A DNA stretch of 64,000 bases from positions 2,152,501-2,216,500 of the forward strand of contig NZ_CP092480.1 in assembly GCF_022429645.1 (NCBI RefSeq). Direction: 5' to 3'. This document shows positions 34,888 to 53,369 of the stretch, piece after piece. The DNA is from Lutibacter sp. A80 (GTDB taxonomy: Bacteria > Bacteroidota > Bacteroidia > Flavobacteriales > Flavobacteriaceae). The notes below the pieces were generated by a model. It searched no databases. It was given only the letters and a program-made list of their open reading frames with translations, and was not told the origin of the DNA. The position numbers and the translations under genes are program-made. The stretch's first letter is position 1. Each line of letters starts with the position of its first letter.

Positions 34888-35046
34888 AAAAGTATTTTAA
34901 AATTGAATAGATATAAGAAAAATAAATTTATCGTACAGAAACCATACAACTTGAACCCTATAAAAAACTCTTAACCAAAAAAGTTAATTGCCAGTAAACA
35001 TACTTATTTTTAAATTACTGACTAAATACTGACTAGATTAGAAATA

Positions 35047-35091
35047 AGAAATCCATAACTGCTTAATTAAAAGTTTGTTACGGATTTTCTT
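35047..35091 (-). terminator. displaced original terminator of tRNA-Leu
   Basis: Imperfect dyad with arms around AGAAATCCATAAC (35047-35059) and GTTACGGATTTTCT (35077-35090), placed on the - strand directly after the displaced 3' piece of tRNA-Leu. It fits the terminator that followed the tRNA gene before the element inserted. Confidence 0.6.
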
Positions 35092-35092
35092 G

Positions 35093-35107
35093 GTACTCGA
35101 GATGGGA
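35093..35107 (-). other. left attachment site: displaced tRNA-Leu 3' end
   Basis: GTACTCGAGATGGGA is identical to 53283-53297, which is the last 14 nt of the tRNA-Leu gene (- strand) plus one flanking base. The integrase gene starts 161 nt inside. The geometry (intact tRNA at one end, 3' fragment at the other, same orientation) is that of tRNA-targeting integration. Confidence 0.8.
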
Positions 35108-35253
35108 GTACCTATAAAGTTAATCATAGTTTTATGCATTTTAACTCATTGATAATTAGTAATAAGAAATTTACTTAACCATCTTAAATTAAGTTTTATT
35201 AACTTTCTAAAATATTTATCCCCCTATTAGAACCCCTATTCAATTAACTTTAC

Positions 35254-35261
35254 TATATTTG
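35254..35261 (+). promoter_or_regulatory. -7 element of the integrase promoter
   Basis: TATATTTG is a perfect TAnnTTTG match only 7 nt before the integrase ATG, which would give an almost leaderless mRNA. No TTG is found at the usual -33 distance, so strength is uncertain. Confidence 0.4.
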
Positions 35262-35268
35262 AATATAT

Positions 35269-36504
35269 ATGAAAGTTTCATTTAGTTTAAGAAAGGATAA
35301 AATAGATAAACAAGGCTTGATCCCTGTTAGAATGCTTATTTCACATAATGGCATTAGAATAAGAAAAGTTGTCCCTAATGTAAAAGTTAAAGAGAAAGAT
35401 TGGGTAAAGAAAAGCCAGAGAGTAAAATCACCTTTAAAATCTCAAGAATACAATTATTATATTGAATACAACAAAATTATAGAAGACTTAGAATCACGAG
35501 TTAAAGAAATTTTCAGATTTATTCTTTTAAATAACATTAATCCAACTGAAGATTATTTATTAAAAAAAATTGAATCTAATGAGGAAGTACATTTAACATT
35601 TGATTTTATGACCTGCTTTCAAGAATTTATTGATAAAAATAAAAGTATTAAGGCAGAACGAACAATTAAGTCCTATGTTACAACTAAAAATTTCATACAG
35701 GACTATATAGATTATTTTAATGAGCCTTTAAACTTCGAAGATCTTGATTTTGATTTTTTTGAAAAATTTAGAATTTACTCTTTTGATATAAAAAACACAA
35801 AAAACAACTATTTTTCTAAACTTATAGGAATTCTTAAAACATTTATGTCTTGGGCTTTTGAAAAAGAATATCATACGAATCTAAATTTTAAAAAATTTAA
35901 AGCCAGCGAAGATGAAACAGAGGTTATTTATTTAACAATGGAAGAATTAATGAACCTCTATAAATTTGAATTCGATTCAGATAGGTTAAGTCACGTAAGA
36001 GATGTTTACTGTTTTGGATGTTTCACAGGTCTGAGGTTCAGTGACTTAAAAGTTTTAAGAACCTCTAATATTTTTGAAGATCACTTAATGCTGAATATTG
36101 TAAAAACCAAAACAATTGGACATAAAGTACCATTGAACCAATATTCAAAGTCTATTTTAGAAAAATATAAAGACACTATTTACGAGCCATTACCAGTCAT
36201 TTCAAGTCAAAAATTTAATAAGTACATAAAAGAGTGTTGTGAAAAAGTTAAAATAACAACACCTACAATTATTACAAGATATATAGGGCAAAAAATAGTA
36301 AATAAAACTGTTCCAAAATATGAAGTAATTACGAGTCACACAGCACGTAAAACATTTGTAACCAACTCTTTAATACTAGGCATGAAAGAAATGATTGTTA
36401 GAAATATTACTGGACATAAGAAAGAAGAATCATTTAGAAAATATGTAAAAATCGCTGAAGATTTTAAGAAACAAGAAATGGATAATACATGGAATAAGAT
36501 ATAA
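35269..36504 (+). CDS. tyrosine recombinase (element integrase)
   Basis: 411 aa. Residues 1-100 are an arm-type DNA-binding region, 110-210 a SAM-like core-binding domain and 220-405 the catalytic domain. The catalytic residues are in place: R256 (GLRFSDL), H357-x-x-R360 (HTARKTF), H383 (ITGHKK) and nucleophile Y392 (FRKYVKI). It should drive integration into and excision from the tRNA-Leu 3' end. It sits 161 nt inside the left attachment copy. The unknown 474-aa gene starts 10 nt after its stop. Confidence 0.93.
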   Translation: MKVSFSLRKDKIDKQGLIPVRMLISHNGIRIRKVVPNVKVKEKDWVKKSQRVKSPLKSQEYNYYIEYNKIIEDLESRVKEIFRFILLNNINPTEDYLLKKIESNEEVHLTFDFMTCFQEFIDKNKSIKAERTIKSYVTTKNFIQDYIDYFNEPLNFEDLDFDFFEKFRIYSFDIKNTKNNYFSKLIGILKTFMSWAFEKEYHTNLNFKKFKASEDETEVIYLTMEELMNLYKFEFDSDRLSHVRDVYCFGCFTGLRFSDLKVLRTSNIFEDHLMLNIVKTKTIGHKVPLNQYSKSILEKYKDTIYEPLPVISSQKFNKYIKECCEKVKITTPTIITRYIGQKIVNKTVPKYEVITSHTARKTFVTNSLILGMKEMIVRNITGHKKEESFRKYVKIAEDFKKQEMDNTWNKI

Positions 36505-36514
36505 AGACTGAAAA

Positions 36515-37939
36515 ATGAAAAAGAAAATTTTTTTAATAAAGCGCAATGAAAAAATTCTACTTGAAGACCCTAATCCAGAGGCTTTTACATTAGACATCAA
36601 TAAACTAAAAGATAAATACCCAATTATAGAAGAGTCTAATCACAAGAAATTCAGGGATAAATACTCTAATTACATTACTCATGAATTCACACCTCACTCA
36701 GAAATTTCTTATGATAATATATATAAGATTATTTTCAGTAAAAATCTTGGTATAATACCTCTTTGTAATAATTTTTTAGAACATATTTATAGTCTTCCAC
36801 CAATAACGAAGATAATATCTATATTAAATCATGCGGTTGCATTAGAAAAAGAGAGATTAATTTATACTGAAGTAGGGAAAATAGCTCTTACAGAATTTGA
36901 AAGGTATTTAGATGATGAATTAGATATTCCTTCTAAAAATCCAAAGAGTTTGTATAATCTTTATTCTAAATGTTCATTTAATGAGGTTGAAGAACTACAA
37001 TGTAAAAGTGTTTATTTCCATACTTTCTATTTCTGTACATTAGGAGAGAAAATACCAAAAGAAATGGAAAATATATTTGAATTTTACGATTTAAAAAATT
37101 ATCAAAAGAGAATTGAAAATAAGATTTCAATAATTAATCAAGATAGCGAACTCTTAATGTTTAGCCCTTTACTATATGATTTTAATCAATGGTCTAAATT
37201 AATACATTACGAATTTTCAATAATAACGAATGAATATTTAAGATTATTATTTAAAAAAAAAATATTGAGTTCTCTCAATCAGTTAAAAAATAGAATTGGG
37301 TATGATAAAATTCCAAACCTACATAATGATAGAGTACATATACATGGGAAAATCTATTTTACACCTTCTGATATAATTAAACCTAGATTTGAAAACCCAC
37401 TATTAAAATATATAGATTTTATTAAAAATTTTATATTTGATAATTCTTCACCATCTAATAATAATCAATTAATCTCAAAATTAGGTAGAAAAGTTAATAA
37501 GAAAATACCCCTTAATGTTAGTCCAAAAAAACTAAATTCTATTTTTTTAAATTTTTTTAAAATAAATATGATATCTATTGATGATGATATTGAAAGTAGA
37601 ATTAAGCGCTTTATAAAAAACTGTTTTGACATAAAGCCAAAGTATTCTTTTGAATCAAAATCAATTGAAACAATTAATTTTTTAGATTTTGATTTAAGAG
37701 AAAAATTATCAAAACTTTTATATGTTTTAAACGAAATAAATATTATTACATACAATAGTTCAAGACATCTATATTTAATTTTAATAATTGAATTAAAAAA
37801 TAATAATAACGAGAATATAGGGCTTAGTGAAAGCACTTTAAAGCCATTATTTCAGGAATTAAAAAATGAAAAAATCAAGATTAATAACATAATTAAAGAG
37901 ATTGGTTTTGAAAGCCAAACAACCTTGAAAAACCTTTAA
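36515..37939 (+). CDS. hypothetical protein of the element core
   Basis: 474 aa, no signal or membrane segment; rich in Lys, Ile and Asn. It is mostly helical by composition. Around residues 345-440 there is a segment with regular hydrophobic spacing (IPLNVSPKKLNSIFLNFF ... FDLREKLSKLLYVLNEINII) and a C-terminal STLKPLFQELKNEKIKI stretch. The position, 10 nt after the integrase and before an excisionase-like gene, resembles RteC-type regulators of Bacteroidota elements, but the sequence gives no firm match. It may regulate excision. Confidence 0.55.
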   Translation: MKKKIFLIKRNEKILLEDPNPEAFTLDINKLKDKYPIIEESNHKKFRDKYSNYITHEFTPHSEISYDNIYKIIFSKNLGIIPLCNNFLEHIYSLPPITKIISILNHAVALEKERLIYTEVGKIALTEFERYLDDELDIPSKNPKSLYNLYSKCSFNEVEELQCKSVYFHTFYFCTLGEKIPKEMENIFEFYDLKNYQKRIENKISIINQDSELLMFSPLLYDFNQWSKLIHYEFSIITNEYLRLLFKKKILSSLNQLKNRIGYDKIPNLHNDRVHIHGKIYFTPSDIIKPRFENPLLKYIDFIKNFIFDNSSPSNNNQLISKLGRKVNKKIPLNVSPKKLNSIFLNFFKINMISIDDDIESRIKRFIKNCFDIKPKYSFESKSIETINFLDFDLREKLSKLLYVLNEINIITYNSSRHLYLILIIELKNNNNENIGLSESTLKPLFQELKNEKIKINNIIKEIGFESQTTLKNL

Positions 37940-38103
37940 TCTGTATAACCAAGCAAATGCCCTTTTTAAAAAAAATTCCCTCCTTTAATCTATTATAAAC
38001 ATTGAGTTTATGGTAACCAAAAAAAATTGGTTACTTGTTAACTCTGTTGTTTAATCCAAACTTTGCCAAAAGAAATTTAAGTTTAATTAAAACTAATATC
38101 AAT

Positions 38104-38415
38104 ATGGCAAATAATGTATTATTCTACACACACACAAAAGACGACTTAAAAAGAACCGTTCGGTTAATCCTTAACGAGCTAAGGCAAACTGAATTAATTG
38201 ATTCATCAATACCTATAGATGATGAAAAACTAAGTCAGTCAGCTGCTGCTCAATTATTAGGCATATCAATAACCTCTATAATCTCCTGGAGAAAATCAGG
38301 GAAAATTCCAAGAGATGCGTATATGCGTATTGGTAGACCCATTTTTTATTCAAAGAAAAAACTTTTAGAATACGCAAGAAAAGACAAGAGTTTAGTTACT
38401 CCTAGTCGAAAATAA
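38104..38415 (+). CDS. excisionase-like helix-turn-helix protein
   Basis: 103 aa from the ATG at 38104; an in-frame ATG at 38035 adds 23 residues of low family character. The C-terminal half is a MerR-like winged HTH of the excisionase family (KLSQSAAAQLLGISITSIISWRKSGKIP, then IGRPIFYSKKKLLEYAR). In Bacteroidota elements this type of gene lies between integrase and replication genes and helps excision or regulates the replication module. Confidence 0.8.
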   Translation: MANNVLFYTHTKDDLKRTVRLILNELRQTELIDSSIPIDDEKLSQSAAAQLLGISITSIISWRKSGKIPRDAYMRIGRPIFYSKKKLLEYARKDKSLVTPSRK

Positions 38416-38464
38416 AAAATTATAAATTTTTCTTACTTAAATATCAATTAATAAAATTAATAGT

Positions 38465-39547
38465 ATGGGTTTACACAATAAATATCTTAATCAAGCAAAT
38501 TTTTTTACAAGGAGTCTTTTTAAACTTGATAGAGAAATCCATAAAGATATTGTATACCTCATTCAAAGTAAGATTGATTTTTTTGGTAAGTCTAAGAATA
38601 TTATCAACATATCGTTTGATGATTATTTGAAAGCTAAAAATATTACAAAAAACGACACATACTCTTTTGTCCAATTCCACGAGTTTGTTGAAGAAATTAA
38701 ACAAATAGGAGGAGCATTCTATAACAACATTAATAATAGTTTCATTTCATTCAATATTGTTGATAATGTACAAATTGATTATGAAAATTCAGAAACCTTA
38801 AAAATAGAACTTGGTAAGTTTGGCAAAGTTTTCTTTTTTAAAGAAAAATTACAGGAATATATTAAAGAGATAACACCACAAGGCAAGCCCCAAAAATATT
38901 GTGGACATACCCAAATTGAAAATTCGGCTTTCAAAATTAATGGAATAAGGAGAAAAAAATTCTTTGAAATAATTTCTCAGTTCAAAAATACAGGTTTTTG
39001 TAAAATTTCAGTAAATGAACTTAAAATGTATCTAGGCTACATTGAAATATACGATAAAACAACTCTAGAACCTCTCAAAAGAGATAAACAACTTAAACTA
39101 ATATTTATACCTAAAGATAAATATGATTTTAAAGATAGTTACCCTAAGTATAGTGTTTTTGAGAGAGATTTTTTAGCTCCAGCAATAAAATCAATAAATA
39201 AAGATGTAAGTAAGGATATAAATAATTTAAAAATATCAAGAAAGAAAAAAACTGGAAGAAAAATCACTCATCTAGAATTTACATTTAATGCTCTAGGTAA
39301 AGATTTATCTGAAGAAGAAACTAAATGCCTAAAACACTTTCAAGATTGCGGTTTAGATAGGACACAGGTAATATTTTTACTTAAGAGAATTGGCTATAAA
39401 GAAATGTATGGACGTTGGATGGAAAACGTAGAAAGAAAAGTAATTGAAGGAGAAAGTGAGGCAAAATATTATGAAAGAAAAACACATAAGGAAATAATAA
39501 ATATTTCAGGATATTTATACAGTGTTTTATTCTCGGAATTACAATAG
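38465..39547 (+). CDS. Rep_3 family replication initiator
   Basis: 360 aa. N-terminal and central winged-helix domains are visible: FFTRSLFKLDREIHKDIVYL near the start, FFEIISQFKNTGF...ISVNELKMYLGY in the middle, then the family hallmark YSVFERDFLAPAIKSINK and GRKITHLEFTF. Proteins of this family bind iterons and open the plasmid origin. A 21-bp iteron array lies 37 nt downstream, so the element can probably replicate as a circle after excision (inference). Confidence 0.85.
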   Translation: MGLHNKYLNQANFFTRSLFKLDREIHKDIVYLIQSKIDFFGKSKNIINISFDDYLKAKNITKNDTYSFVQFHEFVEEIKQIGGAFYNNINNSFISFNIVDNVQIDYENSETLKIELGKFGKVFFFKEKLQEYIKEITPQGKPQKYCGHTQIENSAFKINGIRRKKFFEIISQFKNTGFCKISVNELKMYLGYIEIYDKTTLEPLKRDKQLKLIFIPKDKYDFKDSYPKYSVFERDFLAPAIKSINKDVSKDINNLKISRKKKTGRKITHLEFTFNALGKDLSEEETKCLKHFQDCGLDRTQVIFLLKRIGYKEMYGRWMENVERKVIEGESEAKYYERKTHKEIINISGYLYSVLFSELQ

Positions 39548-39583
39548 TTATTAACAAAGATTATTTATATGAAGTACTGTTTT

Positions 39584-39820
39584 AAGGATACAACCTTACA
39601 CTTTAAGGATGCAACCTCACACTTTAAGGATGCAACCTCACACTTTAAGGATACAACCTCATACTTTAAGGATGCAACCTCATACTTTAAGGATGCAACC
39701 TCACACTTTAAGAATGCACCCTCACACTTTAAGGATGCACCCTCACACTTTAAGGATGCACCCTCACACTATGTTAAGGATGCACCCTCACACTTAGATA
39801 AGGATACACCCTCACACTTA
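39584..39820 (+). repeat. iteron array (probable replication origin), 11 units
   Basis: Eleven direct repeats of AAGGATGCAACCTCACACTT plus T, starting at 39584, 39605, 39626, 39647, 39668, 39689, 39710, 39731, 39752, 39776 and 39800. Nine units follow at 21 bp; the last two steps are 24 bp. Units up to 39689 carry CAACC, later ones CACCC. The array lies directly after the Rep_3 gene, as iterons do. Because the period is a multiple of 3, a frame stays open from 39569 to 39877 and would encode a 102-aa peptide repeating KDATSHF. A second frame is open too, so the ORF is probably a by-product. Confidence 0.8.
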
Positions 39821-40003
39821 CGCTCGGCAACACTAGTATTTACAGGTGCTACAGAGTGTCTAAAATACTACTGTTAAATAATGAAAATGAATAAAACTTC
39901 TGTATTTATAATACGAAAAAATGAATAAATATAAAATTAGGTAAAGGGAAAAAATAGTTTTCCCAACTTAAACTTGATATTAAATTTTAATAAAAGTAAA
40001 ATC

Positions 40004-40609
40004 ATGAAAAAAATCACCACAAATGTTTTAAAAAAAATATACAAAGAAGAAGCTGAAATTTATTTCGGAAACTTAGGAAGATATTTTATAATTGATGAAA
40101 ATAATAAAGATTACCTAAACTATCTATGCCACTATTTTGCTGAAAGCTTAGATTTTGAAAAAAAATTTGGAGGAGAACTTAGAAAAGGACTTATGGTTAC
40201 TGGCAAACTAGGTACAGGTAAATCTTCTTCTTTTGATATTGTTCAGAACATATCCAAAAAACACAAATTTACATCTTTATGGTTCGCTAAAAGATCAGCT
40301 AATGAGATAGTAACAAAATACAATGAAAGCCCCTTAAAAGACTCTATAATAAGGGACGCTTCAAGAGGCAAACTGTATTTCGATGACCTAGGAGCTGAAA
40401 AAGAAGCTTCCAATTTCGGAAAAGAAGATATTTTCGTGAGAATTTTTGAATTAAGATATGAGGCATTTAAAGAAAAAGGAACCAAGACTTTTATAAGCAC
40501 CAATTACTCAATATATGACATAAAAAAAAGATACGGAATTAGGCTATATGATCGCTTTAAAGAGATGTTTAATCTTATAGAACTAAATGGTGAAAGTAGA
40601 AGATTTTAA
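40004..40609 (+). CDS. DnaC/IstB-like AAA+ ATPase (helicase loader)
   Basis: 201 aa from the ATG at 40004; an in-frame ATG at 39974 adds 10 residues. Walker A is GKLGTGKSS (about 67-75), Walker B LYFDDLG (124-130, D127/D128) and a sensor segment TFISTNYS follows. The C-terminal arginine segment YGIRLYDRFKEMF is as in DnaC-type loaders. It probably loads the replicative helicase at the iteron origin just upstream. Confidence 0.8.
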   Translation: MKKITTNVLKKIYKEEAEIYFGNLGRYFIIDENNKDYLNYLCHYFAESLDFEKKFGGELRKGLMVTGKLGTGKSSSFDIVQNISKKHKFTSLWFAKRSANEIVTKYNESPLKDSIIRDASRGKLYFDDLGAEKEASNFGKEDIFVRIFELRYEAFKEKGTKTFISTNYSIYDIKKRYGIRLYDRFKEMFNLIELNGESRRF

Positions 40610-40685
40610 AAAACATTAAAATTAATTATAATGAGGATAATAACACATCAATAATAATTAATTATTCGATAAACTTAGGTTTTAG

Positions 40686-40740
40686 CAAGGTGTGTTATCG
40701 ACAGGTCGATAACTCAAAATCCTACGAAGTTTTGACCTTG
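40686..40740. other. candidate origin of transfer (oriT) with nested dyads
   Basis: Three dyads: GTTATCGAC-AG-GTCGATAAC (40694-40713, perfect 9-bp arms), TCAAAA / TTTTGA (40714-40719 / 40730-40735) and the enclosing CAAGGT / ACCTTG (40686-40691 / 40735-40740). It lies just upstream of a mobC-like remnant, the normal place of oriT in mobilisable Bacteroidota elements. Confidence 0.5.
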
Positions 40741-40808
40741 ATTTATGCTCCTTACAGTTGCAGAAATACCTAAAAATTAAAAATTTCAATACCCCCCCTT
40801 AACTATAT

Positions 40809-41066
40809 ATGAAAAAATCAAGAGCATTAAAAACCAAAAACAGAAGACCATTTTTAGAAGACGGCTTAAAAGGAAATGAGTTAAAAAACTATTTATTTAA
40901 TCATAAAGTTGATAAAAGAATTAAATAAGATTGGAGTTAACATCAACCAAGCCGTAAAAAAATAAACAGTTTTAATACAAAAGATTAAAAGACAAATAAG
41001 CAAATAGAAAACTTACTATCATTTATGGATAGAGTAATGCATCTTCTTAATCAATTGTTATTTTAA
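40809..41066 (+). pseudogene. decayed mobC-like mobilisation gene
   Basis: The first frame (40809-40928) gives 39 aa. At its stop, the next frame continues as LNKIGVNINQAVKK (from 40921), close to the MobC motif LNxIGxNxNQ. After a second slip the first frame resumes (KINSFNTKD, stop, KTNKQIENLLSFMDRVMHLL), ending at 41066. Two frameshifts and one in-frame stop thus break one continuous protein of about 85 aa. MobC helps the relaxase nick oriT. No relaxase gene follows, so mobilisation functions have been lost. Confidence 0.55.
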
Positions 41067-41103
41067 CTAAAAAAATCAAGCTAAACAGCTAAATAATAAT
41101 AAT

Positions 41104-41469
41104 ATGAAAATATATTTAAACTTAACAACCCTGCAAAACTTGCTTTCAATTTTTGAAAAAGCTCCATACAACTATCTTAGTTCAAATAGGAACAGTATTT
41201 TAACACATAATGAAATGTTACATAGAAAAATTTTAAGCCCAATGGGTATTCCTCCAATTTCTAACAAAGAATTGGTTTTTAGAAAAATTTATGAACTCAA
41301 CAATATTGAATCAAAAAAACAACTGTATGGTCTCTACAAATCTATTGAATTTATTAAATTTTACGGTTTAAACATTTATGAAATTAGCCTTATTATTGAC
41401 GAAATTGTATTTGAAATCGAGAATTATTATTTAACACCAAATAGAACCATTTTTAACCCCTTTTCCTAG
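41104..41469 (+). CDS. hypothetical protein
   Basis: 121 aa, no signal or membrane segment. It is helical, with HNEMLHRKILSPMGIPPISN in the middle and a C-terminal LIIDEIVFEIENYY. It is in the position where a relaxase gene would follow mobC but has no relaxase motif. No family is recognised; it could be an element accessory protein. Confidence 0.45.
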   Translation: MKIYLNLTTLQNLLSIFEKAPYNYLSSNRNSILTHNEMLHRKILSPMGIPPISNKELVFRKIYELNNIESKKQLYGLYKSIEFIKFYGLNIYEISLIIDEIVFEIENYYLTPNRTIFNPFS

Positions 41470-41892
41470 TTTACAACAAATAAAATTGATTCAATTATAA
41501 TCCTTAAGACAATGTATATCTAAACTCATTTTTACAGAGGAATTTATTTATAAAATTATTGGCAACATATCATCAACATTAAGATATATGAATGATGTAA
41601 GTCATGTCATATATGTGATAAATGTTATATATGTAATAAATGTTATATATATAATAAATATTATATGTCTAAATTTTCAGGAAGAACTTTTTTCCCTTTT
41701 CCTTAAAATATACTTGAATTAATTAATTGGGGTGTGTAATTACGCATTATTAAATTCAAATATATACGTCATTTATATCATATAAATCATATAAGTCATA
41801 TAAGTCATATAAGTCATATAATTAAACAACGAAATTGTGGGGGTGTGTAATTACGCATTTTCAATAAATACATCAAAAATTTATAGTAAAAA
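41470..41892. repeat. non-coding repeat region between element core and defence cargo
   Basis: No gene. It contains three 18-bp tandem units ATAAATGTTATATATGTA (41618-41671), five 9-bp units TCATATAAG (41778-41822), and two copies of GGGGTGTGTAATTACGCATT (41729-41748 and 41840-41859) flanking the 9-bp units. It may be a partition site, a second replication element or a recombination scar. Confidence 0.65.
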
Positions 41893-41924
41893 TTTGAGAT
41901 AAGTATCATTTTTTACTACTTTTA
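41893..41924 (+). promoter_or_regulatory. promoter of the AbiE pair
   Basis: TTTG at 41893-41896, a 20-nt gap, then TACTTTTA at 41917-41924 (7 of 8 to TAnnTTTG). The predicted start is near 41931, only 10 nt before the GTG start codon. Confidence 0.5.
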
Positions 41925-41940
41925 TAAAAATTTTACTAAA

Positions 41941-42732
41941 GTGAATGCTAAGGATTATATAAAACAATTATTATCTATTGAGAATTTCTCCTTTTCACTT
42001 GAAGAAATTACTCAGCAAACAGATAATAAAGGAACATCACTAAAATTTGAACTTGCCAGATTAATTGAAAAAAAAGAAATTGTAAACCTTAGAAAAGGTT
42101 TTTATTTGATTATCCCTCCCAGATATTCAAGACAAGGACAGATTCCTATTCAACTTTACATTGAGAAACTTTTTAAATATTTAAATAAATCTTATTATTT
42201 AGGATTTTATACTGCAGCAAAATTCCACGGAGCAAGTCACCAACAATCACAAAAAGAATATGTGATGATTCAAACACCTTCATTACCTGATATTAATAAA
42301 AACTCTGTTGATATTCGGTTTTTCACAACAACTACTTTGACTAACAAAAATATTATTGAAAAAAAATCAGATGCAGGAATTTTTAAAATATCAAGCCCTG
42401 TACTAACAACTGTTGACTTGATTCACCACCAAACTAAATTAGGGGGACTCAATAGAATGCTTGCAATTATTGAAGAGTTATCTGAAGAAATAAATGAAAT
42501 CGACTTAAGTGAATTACTCACCTGGTACCCACATAAGAGTACTTTACAACGATTAGGCTTCATTCTTGAATTAGTTGAAGCCGATGAAAAATTAATTGAA
42601 ATACTATCAAAGTATTTTGAAAGAGATAATTATTATCCTGTTTTATTAAGCCCTAGATCATCAGAAAAACCTGGAGCAGTAAATAATAAGTGGAAAGTGG
42701 CTATAAATATTAAACTAGAAAGCGATTTATGA
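41941..42732 (+). CDS. abiEi: AbiEi-type antitoxin (transcriptional regulator)
   Basis: 263 aa with a GTG start. The N-terminal 60 residues are a winged HTH (FSLEEITQQTDNKGTSLKFELARLIEKKEIVNLRKGFYLI), as in AbiEi antitoxins, followed by the AbiEi core (YYLGFYTAAKFHGASHQQSQ, KISSPVLTTVDLIHH). It binds its own promoter and neutralises the AbiEii toxin. It overlaps the toxin gene by 4 nt (ATGA), the usual antitoxin-first order of this type IV pair. Confidence 0.88.
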   Translation: MNAKDYIKQLLSIENFSFSLEEITQQTDNKGTSLKFELARLIEKKEIVNLRKGFYLIIPPRYSRQGQIPIQLYIEKLFKYLNKSYYLGFYTAAKFHGASHQQSQKEYVMIQTPSLPDINKNSVDIRFFTTTTLTNKNIIEKKSDAGIFKISSPVLTTVDLIHHQTKLGGLNRMLAIIEELSEEINEIDLSELLTWYPHKSTLQRLGFILELVEADEKLIEILSKYFERDNYYPVLLSPRSSEKPGAVNNKWKVAINIKLESDL

Positions 42733-43520
42733 TCCCAAAACCAGATATAGCAAAATGGCAAGCCCATGCACCTTGGAAACAATTTTACCAGATAGAACAA
42801 GACTTAGTTATTAGTAGAGCCTTAATTGAAATCTTTTCAGATGATTTTCTCCAAGAAAATTTGGCTTTTAGAGGTGGTACAGCTTTACATAAGCTATATT
42901 TAAATCCAGCACCAAGATATTCTGAAGATATAGATTTAGTTCAGATAAAACCTGGACCTATAAAACCAGTAATGCAACGCATAAATGAAGTTATTACATT
43001 TTTTGAAGAAAAAAGAAGTACAAAAATAGGAGGTCATGGAGCGAAAGCATTGTATAGATTTAATTCAGAATATGAGGATATTCGTCTCAGGTTAAAATTA
43101 GAAATAAACTGTAAAGAACATTTTAATGTATTAGAATGGGTTGATTTTCCTTTTGAAGTAAAAAGCGAATGGTTTTCTGGTAAAGCTAAGATTAGAACTT
43201 ATAACATAAATGAACTCTTAGGAACAAAAATGAGAGCTTTATACCAGCGTAGCAAAGGACGAGATTTATTCGATTTAGATTATTCAAGGTTGAATATGGA
43301 ATTGAATACTGAAGAAATAATTGAAAGCTTTAAAGAGTACACAACCTTTTCTACAGGGAACAGACCCCCTAGTCAAAAAGAATTTTTACAAAATATTGAA
43401 GAAAAAGAGCAAGACCCAAATTTTACAGGAGACATGGAAGCTCTTTTGAGACCAGAAATAACATACAACCAAGAAGCTGCTTTTAAGTGGCTTAAAAGTG
43501 AATTGATAGAAAAAATATAA
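42729..43520 (+). CDS. abiEii: AbiEii-type nucleotidyltransferase toxin
   Basis: 263 aa. The nucleotidyltransferase motifs are visible: FRGGTALHKLY (about 48-57) with the following SEDIDLV (D67 and D69), a central LRLKLEIN, and KMRALYQRSKGRDLFDLDY near 165-184. AbiEii toxins modify tRNA or other targets and stop growth, protecting the population from phage and stabilising mobile DNA. All key residues appear intact, so the pair is probably active. It ends 75 nt before the tracrRNA terminator. Confidence 0.88.
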   Translation: MIPKPDIAKWQAHAPWKQFYQIEQDLVISRALIEIFSDDFLQENLAFRGGTALHKLYLNPAPRYSEDIDLVQIKPGPIKPVMQRINEVITFFEEKRSTKIGGHGAKALYRFNSEYEDIRLRLKLEINCKEHFNVLEWVDFPFEVKSEWFSGKAKIRTYNINELLGTKMRALYQRSKGRDLFDLDYSRLNMELNTEEIIESFKEYTTFSTGNRPPSQKEFLQNIEEKEQDPNFTGDMEALLRPEITYNQEAAFKWLKSELIEKI

Positions 43521-43595
43521 GTTTAAATATATAAAAAAACTGTTTTAAATAAATTTAACCCATTTATACCCCTAGTATAATTTTAATTAAACGTT

Positions 43596-43680
43596 AAAAA
43601 AAGACACTCAAATTAATGAGTGCCATTTTAAATGTTTTCACAACGGAATAATCCTTATTGTGAATTGCTTTCTGATTTGT
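43596..43680 (-). ncRNA. tracrRNA of the type II-C system
   Basis: On the - strand, the first 24 nt or so (to about 43657) are complementary to the 5' half of the crRNA repeat: the + strand here reads TTGTGAATTGCTTTC, then T instead of A, then GATTTGTA. Next comes a nexus-like GGATTATTCC segment, then the terminator hairpin GGCACTCA / TGAGTGTC (43603-43624, 8 bp with one G-U) and a T run ending near 43596. A perfect -7 box, TATATTTG, lies at 43685-43692 on the - strand. It is transcribed away from cas9. Confidence 0.85.
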
Positions 43681-43684
43681 AATT

Positions 43685-43692
43685 CAAATATA
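43685..43692 (-). promoter_or_regulatory. -7 element of the tracrRNA promoter
   Basis: On the - strand TATATTTG, a perfect TAnnTTTG, placed so that transcription would begin at or just before the anti-repeat. No clear TTG at the optimal -33 distance. Confidence 0.5.
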
Positions 43693-43772
43693 CACAAAAA
43701 GAGAATACTATTTAATGACACAAATCATTTTTGATAAAATTTTTTTTTAGTAAATTCAAAGTTTAAAATTGT

Positions 43773-43804
43773 TTTGAAATTAATCTTTATCTATTCTATC
43801 TTTT
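43773..43804 (+). promoter_or_regulatory. cas9 promoter
   Basis: TTTG (43773-43776), 20-nt gap, TATCTTTT (43797-43804; 7 of 8 to TAnnTTTG). The start is predicted near 43811, about 40 nt before the cas9 ATG. Confidence 0.5.
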
Positions 43805-43851
43805 TTTAGAATTAGATAAGGGTTTCTTCTTATAAAAAAGTTGTATTACAC

Positions 43852-46800: not shown

Positions 46801-48036
46801 ATATTGGGAATTGAACGTTTAATAACGTTTAAAGAAAATGGAGGAAAACGAAAATTTAAAGCTCCAATTGAAAATTTCCGTGAAGAGGCTAAAAAGCATA
46901 TTGAATCCATTTTAATTTCTTTTAAAACTAAAAATAAAGTTGTTACAAGAAATGTAAATAAAATAAAACAAGGTAAAAATAGTGTTTTAGAAAAAATACA
47001 ATTGACTCCTAGAGGTCAATTACATAAAGAAACAGTTTATGGTAAATTAAACGAGCCTATTGTTAAACTTGAAAAAGTGAATGCTAAGTTTACACCTAAA
47101 AAAATAAATGAAATTACTAAACCAATATATAGAGAAGCATTACTAAATAGATTATCTAAATTTGGAAACAATCCTAAAAAAGCTTTTACAGGTAAAAATA
47201 GTTTAACTAAAAATCCAATTTATTTAAATGCTGCTAAAACTAAATTAGTACCAGAAGTAGTAAAAACTAAAAGTTTTAACACCAATTATACTATTAGAAA
47301 AGAAGTAAATCCAGATAACTTTAAAAATGTTAAAAGTTTACAAAAAATAATTGATGTTGGTGTACGTAGAATTTTAGAAAAAAGATTAAAGGAATTTGAT
47401 AACAAGCCTAAAGAAGCTTTTTCAAATTTAGAAAAGAATCCAATTTGGTTAAATAAAAATAAAACTATTGCAATTAAAAGAGTTGCTATAAGTGGTGTAA
47501 AAAATGCAGAGCCTTTGCATGCTAAAAAAGACCATTTAGGTAATAAAATTTTAATTAAAAATAAAGAGCAAGCTATTGATTTTGTAAGTACAGGTAACAA
47601 CCATCATGTTGCAATTTATAAAGATGAAAAAGGAAAATTACAAGAAAAAGTAGTTTCTTTTTATGAAGCCGTAGCAAGAGTAAATGAGGATTTACCTATA
47701 ATAGATAAGCATTATAATGAAGCATTGGGTTGGCAATTTTTATTTACAATGAAACAAAATGAGTTGTTTGTATTTCCATCGGATGATTTTAATCCGTATG
47801 ATAAAGATTTGTTAGATATAAAGAACGCTAGTTTAATTAGCAAATACTTGTTTAGAGTTCAAAAAATTGCAACAAAAGATTATTTTTTTAGACATCATTT
47901 AGAAACAACGGTACAAGATGTGAAAGAATTAAAAGAAATAGTATATAAACGAACTGGTTTGTCAGGGATTGAGGGTGTTATTAAAGTTAGAACAAATCAT
48001 TTAGGAGAAATAGTTCAGGTAGGTGAATATGATTGA
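43852..48036 (+). CDS. cas9: Cas9 endonuclease, type II-C
   Basis: 1394 aa, long for II-C but usual in Bacteroidota. RuvC-I is LGLDLGTASIGWAL (D8); the Arg-rich bridge helix is around residues 60-85 (RTLKRGARRNLQRFKLRRKN); RuvC-II is VRIELAREL (E698); the HNH domain has DIEHIIP (H782) and a following KINLQKRD; RuvC-III is HHAMDAL (H949, D952). All catalytic residues are present, so it should be an active RNA-guided DNA nuclease. It works with the divergent tracrRNA upstream and the array downstream. cas1 follows after 55 nt, with a hairpin between them. Confidence 0.97.
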   Translation: MKKILGLDLGTASIGWALVKEAEVLTEKSEIIKLGVRVNPLTTDELTDFEKGRPLSVNADRTLKRGARRNLQRFKLRRKNLIEILCKYDLISKDTPLTEIGKETTHQTLALRAKAAKEKIDLDEFARVLLTINKKRGYKSSRKAVSEDEGVAVDGMAVAKELYENNLTPGEYVFALLKKDKKFIPDFYRSDLQEEFNKIWETQKQHYPSILSDELFLELQGKNKGATWKICEIPFNIVGIKLDGTAKEQKLKKYQLRAESLQSKISLEHLAIVLQEINNELNKSSGYLGAISDRSKELYFNKLTVGEYLYKQIKENPHTSLKNQVFYRQDYLDEFEQIWEVQARYHSILTADLKEEIRDIIIFYQRKLKSQKGLLSFCQFESKEQEYIDALTGKTKKRTIGPKVISKSSPLFQEFKIWQNLNNLEFKPKKNLENNKEKFVLDEETNQLLFEELNIRGDLKANEVLKFLGKKPSEWKCNFEKIEGNRTNQALYNVYQQICEIEGYGFDWNKKTAIEIKDELKVVFPQIGIKSTILDFDTTVEGIDFDKQDSYQLWHLLYAAEDDGKISEADKIVYGNLNVNLKKKLHLKYGFKPEYAKLLSSISLQQDYSSLSTKAIRKILPYLQNGNEFSEACKLAGYNHSNSLTKDELAKRTLKDTLELLPKNSLRNPVVEKILNQMVNLINQVIERYGKPDEVRIELARELKKSAKERAEMTSFISKATTANIDIKKTITKEYGIPNPTKNDVIRYKLWQELAPLGYKTIFTGKEISPQQLFSKEIDIEHIIPKALLFDDSFSNKTLAFKKINLQKRDRTALDFIEEDFNDQVDNFKSRVETLFNKGKGLISNGKYKKMLMSKENLPDGFIERDLRNSQYIAKKARTMLLDVFPNVVATTGGITNKLREDWGLINIMKELNLPKYKALGLTDIEIRKNNKEVEVIKDWTKRNDHRHHAMDALTVAFTSHNHIQYINNLSARKNKKNEKHTSILGIERLITFKENGGKRKFKAPIENFREEAKKHIESILISFKTKNKVVTRNVNKIKQGKNSVLEKIQLTPRGQLHKETVYGKLNEPIVKLEKVNAKFTPKKINEITKPIYREALLNRLSKFGNNPKKAFTGKNSLTKNPIYLNAAKTKLVPEVVKTKSFNTNYTIRKEVNPDNFKNVKSLQKIIDVGVRRILEKRLKEFDNKPKEAFSNLEKNPIWLNKNKTIAIKRVAISGVKNAEPLHAKKDHLGNKILIKNKEQAIDFVSTGNNHHVAIYKDEKGKLQEKVVSFYEAVARVNEDLPIIDKHYNEALGWQFLFTMKQNELFVFPSDDFNPYDKDLLDIKNASLISKYLFRVQKIATKDYFFRHHLETTVQDVKELKEIVYKRTGLSGIEGVIKVRTNHLGEIVQVGEYD

Positions 48037-48046
48037 TAATTAACAC

Positions 48047-48077
48047 AGCCTATTTATTTTTAGAAAATAAGTAGGCT
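48047..48077 (+). other. intercistronic hairpin between cas9 and cas1
   Basis: 14-bp stem (arm AGCCTATTTATTTT, 48047-48060, with 48064-48077; one G-U pair) and a 3-nt loop, 10 nt after the cas9 stop and 14 nt before cas1. There is no T run, so it may tune or process the mRNA rather than end it. Confidence 0.6.
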
Positions 48078-48091
48078 TAAAATAATTAGTT

Positions 48092-48988
48092 ATGATAAAG
48101 CGTACATTATTTTTTAGCAACCCAACTTATTTAAGCACCAAAAATAAGCAGTTGATAATTCAATATCCAGAGGAGGATAAAGAGATGAAAACTGTACCAA
48201 TTGAAGATATTGGAATGTTGGTGTTAGAAAATCAACAAATTACGATTACCAATGGTTTATTAGCTAAATTAGTACAGCATAAAGCAGCTATTGTTAGTTG
48301 TGATGCCTTTCATTTACCAATAAGCTTATTACAACCTTTGGTAGGGCATAGTGAGCAGGCTGAACGATTTAGAAATCAATTAAACGCCAGTATTCCATTA
48401 AAAAAGAATTTATGGCAACAAACAATCAATGCAAAAATAACGAACCAGGCAGCTCATTTAGATTTGATACATATTCCTTCAAGGAAGATGTATAAATGGG
48501 CTTCCGAAGTAAAAAGTGGAGATTTAGAAAATCATGAAAGTAGAGCCGCTGTTTATTACTGGAAAAATATATTTAATATTCCAAATTTCATAAGAAATCA
48601 GCATGGAGATGCGCCAAATAATTTATTAAATTATGGTTATGCTATTTTAAGAGGCATTACCGCTAGAGCTTTGATAAGTTCTGGAATACTGCCAAGTGTG
48701 GGTATTTTTCATCATAATAAATACAATGCGTATTGTTTGGCTGATGATATTATGGAGCCATATCGGGTTTTTGTAGATATGTTGGTGAGGGAAATAGTAG
48801 AAAAAGAATATACTATTAAAGAATTAACGACCGAATTAAAAATGGAATTATTAAAAATTCCAGCAATGGATGTGCTAATTGATGGTAAAAAAAGCCCATT
48901 AATGGTAGCTTTAAGTAGAACCACCAATAGTTTGTATGAATGTTTTTCAGGAAAAAGTAGAAAAATTTTATATCCAATACTTAAGTAG
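48092..48988 (+). CDS. cas1: Cas1 integrase, type II-C
   Basis: 298 aa. Metal-binding residues are visible: E149 (NHESRAAVYYW), H207/H208 (GIFHHNKYNAY) and the acidic LADDIMEPYR near 217-222. The N-terminal beta domain (MIKRTLFFSNPTYLSTKNKQ) and the C-terminal helical domain have the usual length. Cas1 with Cas2 inserts new spacers. No csn2 or cas4 is present, which is the definition of subtype II-C. Confidence 0.96.
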   Translation: MIKRTLFFSNPTYLSTKNKQLIIQYPEEDKEMKTVPIEDIGMLVLENQQITITNGLLAKLVQHKAAIVSCDAFHLPISLLQPLVGHSEQAERFRNQLNASIPLKKNLWQQTINAKITNQAAHLDLIHIPSRKMYKWASEVKSGDLENHESRAAVYYWKNIFNIPNFIRNQHGDAPNNLLNYGYAILRGITARALISSGILPSVGIFHHNKYNAYCLADDIMEPYRVFVDMLVREIVEKEYTIKELTTELKMELLKIPAMDVLIDGKKSPLMVALSRTTNSLYECFSGKSRKILYPILK

Positions 48989-49017
48989 TATTGATTCTGT
49001 TCACTCGGACTGTATGA

Positions 49018-49371
<354 letters not shown>

Positions 49372-49479
49372 AATTTAAAAACGCATTAAGTTTAATAAAG
49401 TTAATGTGGAATAGAAATATATTTTAATTTCTAGTAGACTACTTAACTTGCAGGTTATTAGTTTTTTAGAATCTAATAC

Positions 49480-52400
49480 CCTGCGAATGCTAAGTAAAAA
49501 TACAAATCTGAAAGCAATTCACAACTAGTTAAGGATTAAACGACCTATTGGCACACCTGCGAATGCTAAGTAAAAATACAAATCTGAAAGCAATTCACAA
49601 CTGTTTTATTGTTTTTCATAATTATTGGTTTCCTGCGAATGCTAAGTAAAAATACAAATCTGAAAGCAATTCACAACATATTTTATTGTGCTTATTGTTA
49701 AATTTATCCTGCGAATGCTAAGTAAAAATACAAATCTGAAAGCAATTCACAACTAGTCTGTCTAATTCATGTTTATTTTTCCACCTGCGAATGCTAAGTA
49801 AAAATACAAATCTGAAAGCAATTCACAACCCAACATCACCTGTTATAATACCATATTCACCTGCGAATGCTAAGTAAAAATACAAATCTGAAAGCAATTC
49901 ACAACTATGCTTGTAAATTTAAACCGTAGCTATGCCCTGCGAATGCTAAGTAAAAATACAAATCTGAAAGCAATTCACAACTAACTTCGTAAGCTCTTTC
50001 TGTTAAACTATCCTGCGAATGCTAAGTAAAAATACAAATCTGAAAGCAATTCACAACTAATATGTTATTATCAAATCGTTTTATTTCCTGCGAATGCTAA
50101 GTAAAAATACAAATCTGAAAGCAATTCACAACGATCCAAAGCTGTTATTATTGGCTTTTATTCCTGCGAATGCTAAGTAAAAATACAAATCTGAAAGCAA
50201 TTCACAACTACACCGTTAAAACCTTCTTGCACCTGTAACCTGCGAATGCTAAGTAAAAATACAAATCTGAAAGCAATTCACAACTTATTGGATATTCAAA
50301 AGATGAATTACATCCTGCGAATGCTAAGTAAAAATACAAATCTGAAAGCAATTCACAACTGTGGTGCCAACTATCCGTTCCGTTTGCGCCTGCGAATGCT
50401 AAGTAAAAATACAAATCTGAAAGCAATTCACAACTGCAACAGCAGTTTCAATTTGTTCATCTTTCCTGCGAATGCTAAGTAAAAATACAAATCTGAAAGC
50501 AATTCACAACTTAGTTAAACGAACTCTTTTTGCTTCAAAACCTGCGAATGCTAAGTAAAAATACAAATCTGAAAGCAATTCACAACTATAGAATATGTTG
50601 AAGCGTAAACAGTTATCCTGCGAATGCTAAGTAAAAATACAAATCTGAAAGCAATTCACAACTAATCACTTGAAACATAAATGTAATTGTTGCCTGCGAA
50701 TGCTAAGTAAAAATACAAATCTGAAAGCAATTCACAACTAAAATAGGCTCAATACTTTCCTCATTGTTCCTGCGAATGCTAAGTAAAAATACAAATCTGA
50801 AAGCAATTCACAACATTACGTCCTCTTCCCAGTCTCCGCCCATACCTGCGAATGCTAAGTAAAAATACAAATCTGAAAGCAATTCACAACAAGGTGCTTT
50901 ATCTTATATTGAAAAATATACCTGCGAATGCTAAGTAAAAATACAAATCTGAAAGCAATTCACAACTACTCGGTAAAACCCATTCCTTTTTCTTTCCTGC
51001 GAATGCTAAGTAAAAATACAAATCTGAAAGCAATTCACAACTCTCCCCCTCGTATTTTTCAACTCCAATTACCTGCGAATGCTAAGTAAAAATACAAATC
51101 TGAAAGCAATTCACAACTCTCCGTCGGGGCGGATTGAAAAAGTTTTACCTGCGAATGCTAAGTAAAAATACAAATCTGAAAGCAATTCACAACTACAGGC
51201 TTTTCGGATTTACCAGAGCCAAACCTGCGAATGCTAAGTAAAAATACAAATCTGAAAGCAATTCACAACCCCTTTTTATTAGTTCTTCGTTTTTTTCGCC
51301 TGCGAATGCTAAGTAAAAATACAAATCTGAAAGCAATTCACAACTTGTGGTATGTTAGTTTCAAAAGAAATTTTCCTGCGAATGCTAAGTAAAAATACAA
51401 ATCTGAAAGCAATTCACAACATAAGCTCCTTAAATTGTATTGTCCGTACACCTGCGAATGCTAAGTAAAAATACAAATCTGAAAGCAATTCACAACTAGC
51501 TGTGCGTAAATAAACTTGTAGGTTGACCTGCGAATGCTAAGTAAAAATACAAATCTGAAAGCAATTCACAACAAGCGGATGGTGTGTTAGTAATTTTGCG
51601 TCCTGCGAATGCTAAGTAAAAATACAAATCTGAAAGCAATTCACAACTCATTACTTCGCCATCCATACGACAAGTTGCCTGCGAATGCTAAGTAAAAATA
51701 CAAATCTGAAAGCAATTCACAACTGTTGACAATTTAGGTATTGGCGGTGAGGCCCTGCGAATGCTAAGTAAAAATACAAATCTGAAAGCAATTCACAACT
51801 AGGATTGGTTTAAATATTGCAAATTCAGGCCTGCGAATGCTAAGTAAAAATACAAATCTGAAAGCAATTCACAACCGCTAAGGCTGAGAACTCTGCATTT
51901 AACACCTGCGAATGCTAAGTAAAAATACAAATCTGAAAGCAATTCACAACACCTATTGCGTTCATCATTTGCTCAATAGACCTGCGAATGCTAAGTAAAA
52001 ATACAAATCTGAAAGCAATTCACAACTAATACATTACCACCATTTGCCAATGCTTCCCTGCGAATGCTAAGTAAAAATACAAATCTGAAAGCAATTCACA
52101 ACTCTGTATTTGTCATATGTTCAGAATCCTTCCCTGCGAATGCTAAGTAAAAATACAAATCTGAAAGCAATTCACAACTGGGTACTCACATGGCGGTTTC
52201 TAATCACGCCTGCGAATGCTAAGTAAAAATACAAATCTGAAAGCAATTCACAACCCTGGTGTTGCTATTATATAACCTGCATCTCCTGCGAATGCTAAGT
52301 AAAAATACAAATCTGAAAGCAATTCACAACCTTTTAGCTATTGAGTATCTGTGTATTACTCCTGCGAATGCTAAGTAAAAATACAAATCTGAAAGCAATT

Positions 52401-53140
52401 CACAACAAAGATATAAAAAAGGTTACAGATTTAGAACCTGCGAATGCTAAGTAAAAATACAAATCTGAAAGCAATTCACAACAGACGAATTTAAAGTACA
52501 AACAGTTTGGAGCCTGCGAATGCTAAGTAAAAATACAAATCTGAAAGCAATTCACAACAAAACCGCTAAGGTATTAACTGTTGCTTTACCTGCGAATGCT
52601 AAGTAAAAATACAAATCTGAAAGCAATTCACAACTATGTCTACATATTCCGACATACTATAAAACCTGCGAATGCTAAGTAAAAATACAAATCTGAAAGC
52701 AATTCACAACCTCTTTACCTTTATTATCTAAATCTTGTATCCTGCGAATGCTAAGTAAAAATACAAATCTGAAAGCAATTCACAACTAACTGATAAAAAG
52801 TCGTTTTAAAATTCACCTGCGAATGCTAAGTAAAAATACAAATCTGAAAGCAATTCACAACTTAATCCAGTTCTGCATAAGCGTTACCATTCCTGCGAAT
52901 GCTAAGTAAAAATACAAATCTGAAAGCAATTCACAACAACCAAACTATTTAATAAGAATTTACGAAACCTGCGAATGCTAAGTAAAAATACAAATCTGAA
53001 AGCAATTCACAACAGAAAACAGCGAAATCAACAACAAGAAAATCCTGCGAATGCTAAGTAAAAATACAAATCTGAAAGCAATTCACAACGTACTGTTTGG
53101 GTTTAATTCGGAGAATTTCCTGCGAATGCTAAGTAAAAAT
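49480..53140 (-). CRISPR. type II-C CRISPR array, 48 full repeats plus a truncated 49th
   Basis: The repeat is 46 nt (on the + strand from CCTGCGAATGCTAAG to AAGCAATTCACAAC) and all 48 full copies appear identical; spacers are 29-30 bp, period 75-76. First repeat 49480-49525, last full one 53044-53089; a 22-nt partial repeat at 53119-53140 ends the array. In crRNA sense the repeat begins GTTGTGAATTGC, and the tracrRNA anti-repeat pairs with that half, so crRNAs are read from the - strand, towards cas2. Each repeat contains TTG-N19-TATTTTTA on the - strand, a near-consensus promoter. Confidence 0.97.
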
Positions 53141-53245
53141 GTAGAATTCTTCCTATATAGATTAACTATAATTTTTGCTTAAACACAACAATTAGGCTTG
53201 ATCGCCAAACTCATTTAACCCCCTAAACAAACCCCTAAAAAACAA

Positions 53246-53281
53246 AAAACTCTTGAAAATCAAACGATTAACAAGAGTTTT
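53246..53281 (-). terminator. terminator of the tRNA-Gly/tRNA-Leu unit
   Basis: 10-bp perfect arms AAAACTCTTG / CAAGAGTTTT (53246-53255, 53272-53281), directly after the 3' end of tRNA-Leu on the - strand. It lies on the element side of the attachment core, so it was brought in by the element to replace the displaced one near 35.05 kb. Confidence 0.75.
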
Positions 53282-53283
53282 AG

Positions 53284-53369
53284 TACTCGAGATGGGACTT
53301 GAACCCATACGGACATTACTGTCCACTGGATTTTAAGTCCAGCGTGTCTACCAATTCCACCACTCGAGC
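53284..53369 (-). tRNA. tRNA-Leu(UAA)
   Basis: 86 nt, with GCTCGAG acceptor arm pairing with CTCGAGT, a long variable arm (class II), anticodon TAA in CTTAAAA, and the T-loop GGTTCAAGTCCC. CCA is not encoded. Its 3' 14 nt are the attachment core of the adjacent element. Confidence 0.97.

Follow-up and report, generated by a model that had tools for sequence, protein, structure and literature searches.

Positions 35093–53297 of the stretch analysed here, 64,000 nt of the marine bacterium Lutibacter sp. A80 (contig NZ_CP092480.1, positions 2,152,501 to 2,216,500; hereafter the window), are very probably an 18.2-kb integrative element that belongs to a defence-carrying family at tRNA-Leu and encloses a complete Cas9 locus with its CRISPR (clustered regularly interspaced short palindromic repeats) array; this confidence covers the element and not its present mobility. 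Sequence comparison shows its boundaries, its arm sites, its gene content, the architecture that it has in common with its family and the enclosure of the CRISPR locus.

Element ends

The element is delimited by two direct copies of a 15-mer, GTACTCGAGATGGGA (Table 1). These are the sole matches in the window at two or fewer mismatches (0.04 expected) and the sole exact matches in the whole 3.93-Mb genome, and the right copy is the 3′ end of tRNA-Leu(taa). An open reading frame (ORF) for a tyrosine integrase starts exactly 161 nt after the left copy. Both the 15-mer pair and the nearby integrase had been proposed from a sequence-only reading of this DNA, and both were confirmed, the pair being unique in the genome. 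Each end also carries an arm motif of the pattern CCCCTA-N6-CCCCTA, which occurs exactly at 35221 and 53220 and nowhere else in the genome. Since the right arm lies outside the array, between it and the tRNA gene, the CRISPR locus is inside the element. Direct core repeats, integrase geometry and matching arm sites are all as in tRNA-targeting tyrosine-integrase elements.

The sequence immediately left of 35093 (60 nt) is similar to the DNA on the far side of tRNA-Leu in genomes G016 (alignment score 81) and G017 (score 63), the best of 300 shuffles scoring 34; such likeness is expected if integration pushed that DNA outward. Joined to each other, the window flanks resemble the DNA downstream of tRNA-Leu in G016. 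Further out, 34899–34966 resembles the DNA after a tRNA-adjacent array in G026 (84% over 69 columns), which suggests an older layer at the same hot spot. Two arm-and-terminator-like segments can be seen at 34899–35092, just outside the left core, suggesting older integrations layered at tRNA-Leu.

Table 1. Coordinates of the putative element, its parts and its target gene in the window
Feature	Position	Strand	Remarks
Putative displaced former downstream region of tRNA-Leu	35015..35092		Terminator hairpin and older arm-like repeat; outside the element
Left attachment core	35093..35107	+	Copy of the tRNA-Leu 3′ end
Left arm motif	35220..35238	+	CCCCCTATTAGAACCCCTA; just before integrase
Tyrosine integrase, 411 aa	35269..36504	+	PF00589, PF13102, PF17293; relatives 46-66%, G021 87%
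474-aa protein, no recognized family	36515..37939	+	Partial match (43% over 121 aa) to an integrase-neighbour protein of G174
HTH_17 protein	38035..38415	+	Relatives' alignments begin at 38104
Rep_3-type replication initiator (Rep3_C)	38465..39547	+	Three plasmid matches, Elizabethkingia and Chryseobacterium, 34-37%
Iteron-like 21-nt tandem repeats	39581..39812		Behind rep
DnaC/DnaI-like ATPase	39974..40609	+	NCBIfam matches below cut-offs; 52% to a protein of the G174 element
AbiEi antitoxin-type protein	41941..42732	+	
AbiEii toxin-type nucleotidyltransferase	42729..43520	+	Last 185 nt identical in G026 (185/185)
tracrRNA region	43521..43851		Anti-repeat at 43658-43684; G026 agrees at 329/331 aligned sites, with 24 gap columns
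cas9, 1394 aa	43852..48036	+	TIGR01865
cas1, type II	48092..48988	+	TIGR03639
cas2	49030..49371	+	TIGR01573
CRISPR array	49480..53140	+	48 identical 46-nt repeats and one truncated repeat at 53120
Right arm motif	53219..53237	+	CCCCCTAAACAAACCCCTA; between CRISPR array and tRNA
Right attachment core	53283..53297	+	Within tRNA-Leu
Intact tRNA-Leu(taa), target gene	53283..53369	-	

Gene content and CRISPR-Cas locus

The sequence-only reading had listed an integrase, a helix-turn-helix protein, Rep_3, iterons, a DnaC-like ATPase, a mobilization remnant, an AbiE pair and the CRISPR-Cas locus. All were found again except the mobilization remnant: the ORF concerned (41104–41469) has no Pfam or PADLOC match, and tblastn with proteins from the loci of eight integrase relatives gave no match between 40.6 and 42.2 kb. 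The HTH_17 protein presumably has an excisionase-like role. A CRISPR-associated Tn7-like transposon was considered and rejected, with no match to a Tn7-type transposition gene among the element proteins scanned.

Type II-C systems have cas9, cas1 and cas2 without csn2 or cas4, together with a trans-activating CRISPR RNA (tracrRNA) and an array. The locus fits this type, with cas9-cas1-cas2, a tracrRNA anti-repeat upstream of cas9 and an array; the interval from cas2 to the tRNA holds no other ORF that reaches 80 aa. Its 48 spacers, each of 29–30 nt, are all different, bearing out the 48-spacer memory read earlier. The window repeat recurs unchanged in two other Lutibacter genomes, G001 and G026. 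A search for spacer targets among phages, plasmids and the loci retrieved for comparison gave no convincing protospacer, the best phage pieces being short (E ≥0.03). CRISPR activity is presumed here from the intact genes.

Integrase relatives

We searched for the integrase in a 299-genome sample of Flavobacteriaceae and found 12 matches at E ≤1e-60, its own included; eight of the 11 relatives were read further, the other three being the most distant (36–39% identity). In the window and in five of these eight, a tRNA-Leu-type core fragment, GTAC-N7-GGGA, precedes the integrase start by exactly 161 nt; with the Lutibacter genome G021, where the core has this spacing too, the count is six of nine relatives. 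Complete core pairs, with the 15-mer recurring at the 3′ end of tRNA-Leu, delimit elements of 15.04 kb in G056, 19.12 kb in G174 and 19.37 kb in G130, whose integrases are 60–66% identical to that of the window. In G332 the core fragment equals a tRNA end on another contig, and in G087 the nearest tRNA end is one base off the fragment. The G174 element occupies the tRNA-Leu(taa)-tRNA-Gly pair that also hosts the window element, and its arms are of the window type (exact at the right end, one mismatch at the left); G130 and G056 each have an arm motif of their own, present at both ends.

The 161-nt core spacing, paired arm motifs, a length of 15.0–19.4 kb and defence genes are thus common to the window element and these three. 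The relatives carry a DISARM DrmA (G130), AbiD (G056) or a weak match to ApeA (G174), and AbiE with a type I methyltransferase is found near the integrase of G087, where the element end was not found. In the window the integrase, HTH_17, Rep_3 and DnaC-like genes are kept and the cargo is AbiE and CRISPR-Cas. The G056 element also matches the families Rep_3, Toprim and DUF5712 and, in contrast to that of the window, the conjugation-type families TraG, TraO and TraQ; G174 has DUF5712. Together the arms, the 161-nt geometry, the core pairs of three relatives and the displaced DNA support the proposal that this Cas9 locus lies inside a tRNA-Leu integrative element.

On the G130 element (L101 9475–11374), a protein of 365 aa that matches Cas12f/Cas12u models is encoded next to one of 267 aa. 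ORF pairs similar to this one in size, the only property compared, occur near the cas loci of Leeuwenhoekiella (L208) and Salegentibacter (L210).

The tRNA-Leu site in Lutibacter

Among 37 genus relatives we read 35 upstream of ctaB, several stretches being limited by contig ends; the other two (G024, G035) have partial ctaB matches. The tRNA-Leu gene is present in 34 of the 35 stretches, the contig ending before it in L063. In these 34 genomes the interval from tRNA-Leu(taa) to ctaB is a hot spot, with widely differing contents and several alternative terminator types. Extra core-like copies (two mismatches or fewer) occur in L067, L071, L073, L078 and L080, where no homologue of the window integrase is present. 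A hydrogenase block lies 20 kb or less from tRNA-Leu in eight genus genomes; its large-subunit protein had no match in G000, in a search that had no positive control. For SusC/SusD-, AraC- and other genes of the window that lie left of 33.0–34.6 kb, the genus stretches gave family-level matches only (21–34%).

A neighbourhood so variable in contents and terminators would suit the idea that the two 15-mers match by chance and that unrelated insertions have made the region a mosaic. We consider this extremely improbable, given 0.04 expected matches at two or fewer mismatches, the exact 161-nt spacing in seven genomes and an arm motif that is exact only at the two ends.

Integrase matches at E ≤1e-30 were found in six of 38 genus genomes, counting that of the window: G021 at 87% and four others at 32–34%. 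G021 has the same core-to-integrase distance, 161 nt, and CCCCTA-N6-CCCCTA before the integrase gene. Outside its core lies a block of host DNA, about 1.85 kb long; the G023 copy of this block (80% identity) stops about 105 nt short of tRNA-Leu, and there is no insert between them. By sequence, the site for integrases of this type is occupied in G021 and free in G023; the comparison concerns the type and not the window's own copy. In G021 three contigs are involved: one of 3.4 kb has the integrase, a second has tRNA-Leu at its edge and a third has cas9. The three pieces (L220, G021:C61; L190, G021:C128; L221, G021:C107), of which the cas9 is of the G026 type and has its contig end after it, are possibly one broken-up CRISPR element.

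Evidence against a single element

Several observations weigh against an integrative element that includes the cas locus. In the stretches read, none of the eight extended integrase relatives has homologues of the window cas genes, and Rep matches at E ≤1e-20 in the 299-genome sample are confined to its own genome. The integrase-Rep-cas9 order, which the sequence-only reading had suggested looking for elsewhere, was seen in no other genome searched, that is, in neither the 299-genome Rep search nor the eight extended loci. Three of those loci (L104, L106, L107) have no tRNA-Leu-type fragment before the integrase. On the host side, homologues of the three window ORFs at 33.0–34.6 kb were found in none of the 34 genus stretches. 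At one mismatch the arm pattern is unspecial, with eight further places in the genome and 10 at one mismatch or fewer for the reversed control, and the motif was picked after reading both ends, before its genome-wide test; its exact uniqueness and the motifs of relatives nevertheless argue against chance. Among the element proteins no relaxase, coupling or conjugation gene was recognized (Pfam, PADLOC, and tblastn with relatives' proteins), so the genes of a self-transmissible integrative and conjugative element (ICE), namely a relaxase, a coupling protein and conjugation genes, are missing from its recognized content. An integrative mobilizable element (IME) would be marked by a relaxase or a recognizable oriT; of these, a relaxase was looked for and none recognized.

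A point that carries weight comes from other genomes. Cas9 homologues occur in 13 of 38 genus genomes, that of the window included. In G001, G026 and, outside the genus, Aquimarina intermedia (L143), a cas locus lies beside this tRNA-Leu and no integrase or second core was recognized in the stretches read; nor does the segment from integrase to AbiE occur anywhere else in the G026 or G001 genome. The ten other genus Cas9 loci have no tRNA in the stretches read, some of which end at contig edges. The sequence-only reading had itself said that a cas locus at this place, without the integrase or second core, would count against it, and these three genomes partly present that case.

They raise the possibility that the CRISPR-Cas locus was resident beside tRNA-Leu and that the integrase segment was joined to it later by recombination between tandem elements, the cores now bounding a composite that never moved as a unit. 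The Cas1 proteins of the window, G001 and G026 fall within one starred five-row group, which also has Flavivirga and Aquaticitalea. The final repeat breaks off at one point in the window and at another in G026, and the array-tRNA junctions differ. Yet an element that integrates at a tRNA 3′ end comes to lie next to the tRNA, with older DNA beyond it, and a resident locus would then be expected left of 35093; the same arm motif stands at both ends and exactly nowhere else in the genome; and what the window, G001 and G026 have in common between array and tRNA is little more than about 50 nt, the terminator end. We regard a resident locus as improbable.

The G026 locus has a further bearing. Its abiEii 3′ end and tracrRNA region agree with the window at 514 of 516 aligned sites (99.6%, 24 gap columns) and its leader at 104/108; host DNA of the two genomes is 90.8% identical over 7.05 kb and 87.8% over 3.7 kb, and their Cas9 proteins are about 27% identical. 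G026 lacks the remainder of the AbiE operon and the whole segment from the integrase to 41.6 kb, both at the locus and elsewhere in the genome. It therefore seems to hold the remains of a decayed cargo end that the two genomes share through recent exchange. We do not think that a locus of the G026 kind overturns the reading as an element, since G026 still holds DNA of the window element. This answer does not extend to Aquimarina intermedia or to G001, whose match to the tracrRNA region extends over about 114 nt (82%) and in which no arm motif was seen.

Mobility

As an element, the segment could work as follows. The integrase would recombine the 15-bp core, using the paired arm sites on both flanks, with the HTH_17 protein probably acting as excision factor; integration would rebuild the tRNA and push old downstream DNA outward; and the Rep_3 protein, the iteron-like repeats and the DnaC-like ATPase probably allow an excised circle to replicate or to be maintained. 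That the element excises, re-integrates and takes its spacer memory along is inferred from this anatomy and from what is established for tyrosine-integrase elements. Because the array adjoins the tRNA end and is inside the element, the immune memory would travel with it. With no transfer genes of its own recognized, the element would have to rely on a helper or move in some other way.

It could also be a genuine former integrative element that is now immobile, its transfer functions lost and its CRISPR locus ordinary chromosome. The lack of recognized transfer genes fits this, the more so as G056 has DUF5712, TraG-type, TraO and TraQ matches and G174 DUF5712, and so does the decayed locus at the same site in G026. 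On the other hand the integrase, HTH_17 and Rep frames are open, the cores and arms are intact by sequence, and the near-identical DNA flanking the cargo in G026 points to recent exchange. We think immobility rather unlikely, though considerably less so than a resident locus; it is compatible with enclosure of the CRISPR locus, so that its probability is not to be added to those of the other readings.

Replacement of cas9

The comparison with other systems covered 80 loci, the best 80 of at least 320 from one Cas1 scan. Those with full-length genes (72 of the 80), the window and G026 made 74 Cas1-Cas9 pairs, which were divided into two Cas9 groups by more or less than 45% identity to the window Cas9. 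On quick trees, of which that for Cas9 has long branches, the two groups require one change on the Cas9 tree and 26 on the Cas1 tree, at least 10 of them forced by starred branches; shuffles average 24.5. Cas9 group is therefore unlinked to the Cas1 tree.

The boundaries of the exchange can be read from pairs of loci. As an example, Flavobacterium L124 and L127 have in common a 4.3-kb stretch that ends 52 nt inside cas9 (96% identity) and one of 2.1 kb that begins at about the cas9 stop (97%), with different Cas9s between. Among between-group pairs alignable across the cas9 start, 211 of 242 lose similarity 30–80 nt into the gene and none passes 300 nt, while 409 of 467 same-group pairs do; the pairs are non-independent, and conserved RuvC-I codons alone can stretch an alignment by about 50 nt. 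In the clearest replacement pairs one break falls within about 50 nt of the start codon, in the RuvC-I codons, and the other coincides with the stop or follows it closely; many pairs have their 3′ break up to 1 kb past the stop. Between the window and G026 (L055, 8760–13364) similarity breaks 47 nt into cas9; the cas1-cas2 DNA there is just 78% identical, so the exchanged block may include cas1 and cas2. Whole cas9 genes of the two deeply diverged groups are seen swapped in conserved loci in window/L055 (G026), L124/L127, L128/L146 and L132/L135.

These patterns suggest frequent replacement of whole cas9 genes in conserved loci, with breaks near the RuvC-I codons. We give an even chance to a broader reading, in which the elements would act as a mobile chassis for CRISPR-Cas9: they would keep their RNA parts and adaptation genes, while cas9 would be repeatedly replaced whole by homologous recombination, one repeat/tracrRNA system being served by interchangeable Cas9s about 27% identical. 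The purpose is perhaps escape from anti-CRISPR proteins or a change of the protospacer adjacent motif.

Other Cas9 loci beside tRNA or tmRNA genes

A tRNA occurs in the flanks of 12 of the 80 loci. Taking the nearest tRNA on each side, 12 of 13 have their 3′ end facing the locus (one-sided p=0.0017), or 11 of 12 without G001, which is included in this count; for L159, where array detection failed, the distance is unreliable. This orientation is the geometry of tRNA-targeted islands. In Mesonia mobilis (L147; G338:C8 72100–111900) an integrase and a cas locus lie between two copies of a tRNA-Pro 3′ 13-mer, 12.9 kb apart, with a 16-nt arm repeat at both ends; we consider it a second candidate Cas9 element, with a different integrase.

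Two further loci have an integrase close by. Salegentibacter flavus (L115/L210) has an integrase and a transfer-messenger RNA (tmRNA) gene beside the array, with a cas9 locus, an AbiE pair and a DnaC-like gene; no second core was found in the stretch read, whose contig begins at that end. Leeuwenhoekiella parthenopeia (L141/L208) has an array, a tyrosine integrase and tRNA-Arg in a row and three TGGTAGC arm-like repeats, with no second core within 27.6 kb.

Known systems and significance

Cas9 on tRNA-inserted elements is already precedented, and the remark in the sequence-only reading that Cas9 loci are usually treated as chromosomal overlooks two reports. CampyICE1 (PMC8743540) is a Campylobacter ICE with an integrase beside a tRNA gene, type II-C Cas9 and CRISPR arrays; it is 70–129 kb long and at tRNA-Met, with conjugation genes, Cas9 alone and up to three short arrays, whereas the window element, in another phylum, has 18 kb, tRNA-Leu, no recognized transfer genes, complete cas9-cas1-cas2 and a 48-spacer array. 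Vibrionaceae islands (PMC6360697) carry CRISPR-Cas, including type II-B Cas9, and integrases at tRNA genes, with one type III-A island at tRNA-Leu. They differ in subtype and host, arm-site evidence was not encountered in the available part of that paper, and its authors found it unclear for some islands whether CRISPR came with the island or later. Within Bacteroidota the Persicobacter plasmid pPP11 (NZ_AP025303.1) has cas9, cas1, a related array and an AbiEi gene, as in the window, but is a plasmid, and its Cas1 is 47% identical. A literature search (titles, partial coverage) found no flavobacterial tRNA-Leu Cas9 element and no whole-cas9 replacement, which does not imply absence from print.

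The window element is thus a compact, complete and well-bounded case in another phylum. It gives sharply bounded evidence that a small site-specific element, from a family whose members carry differing defence genes at tRNA-Leu, houses a complete Cas9 system and its long spacer memory. The more surprising observation is the replacement of cas9: the comparison with G026 and the Flavobacterium pairs suggest that Cas9 is exchangeable independently of tracrRNA and repeats and, in Flavobacterium, also of Cas1. Transfer of acquired immunity becomes directly testable by excision and integration assays, and the element suggests that Cas9 immunity could arrive by transfer and need not only be inherited.

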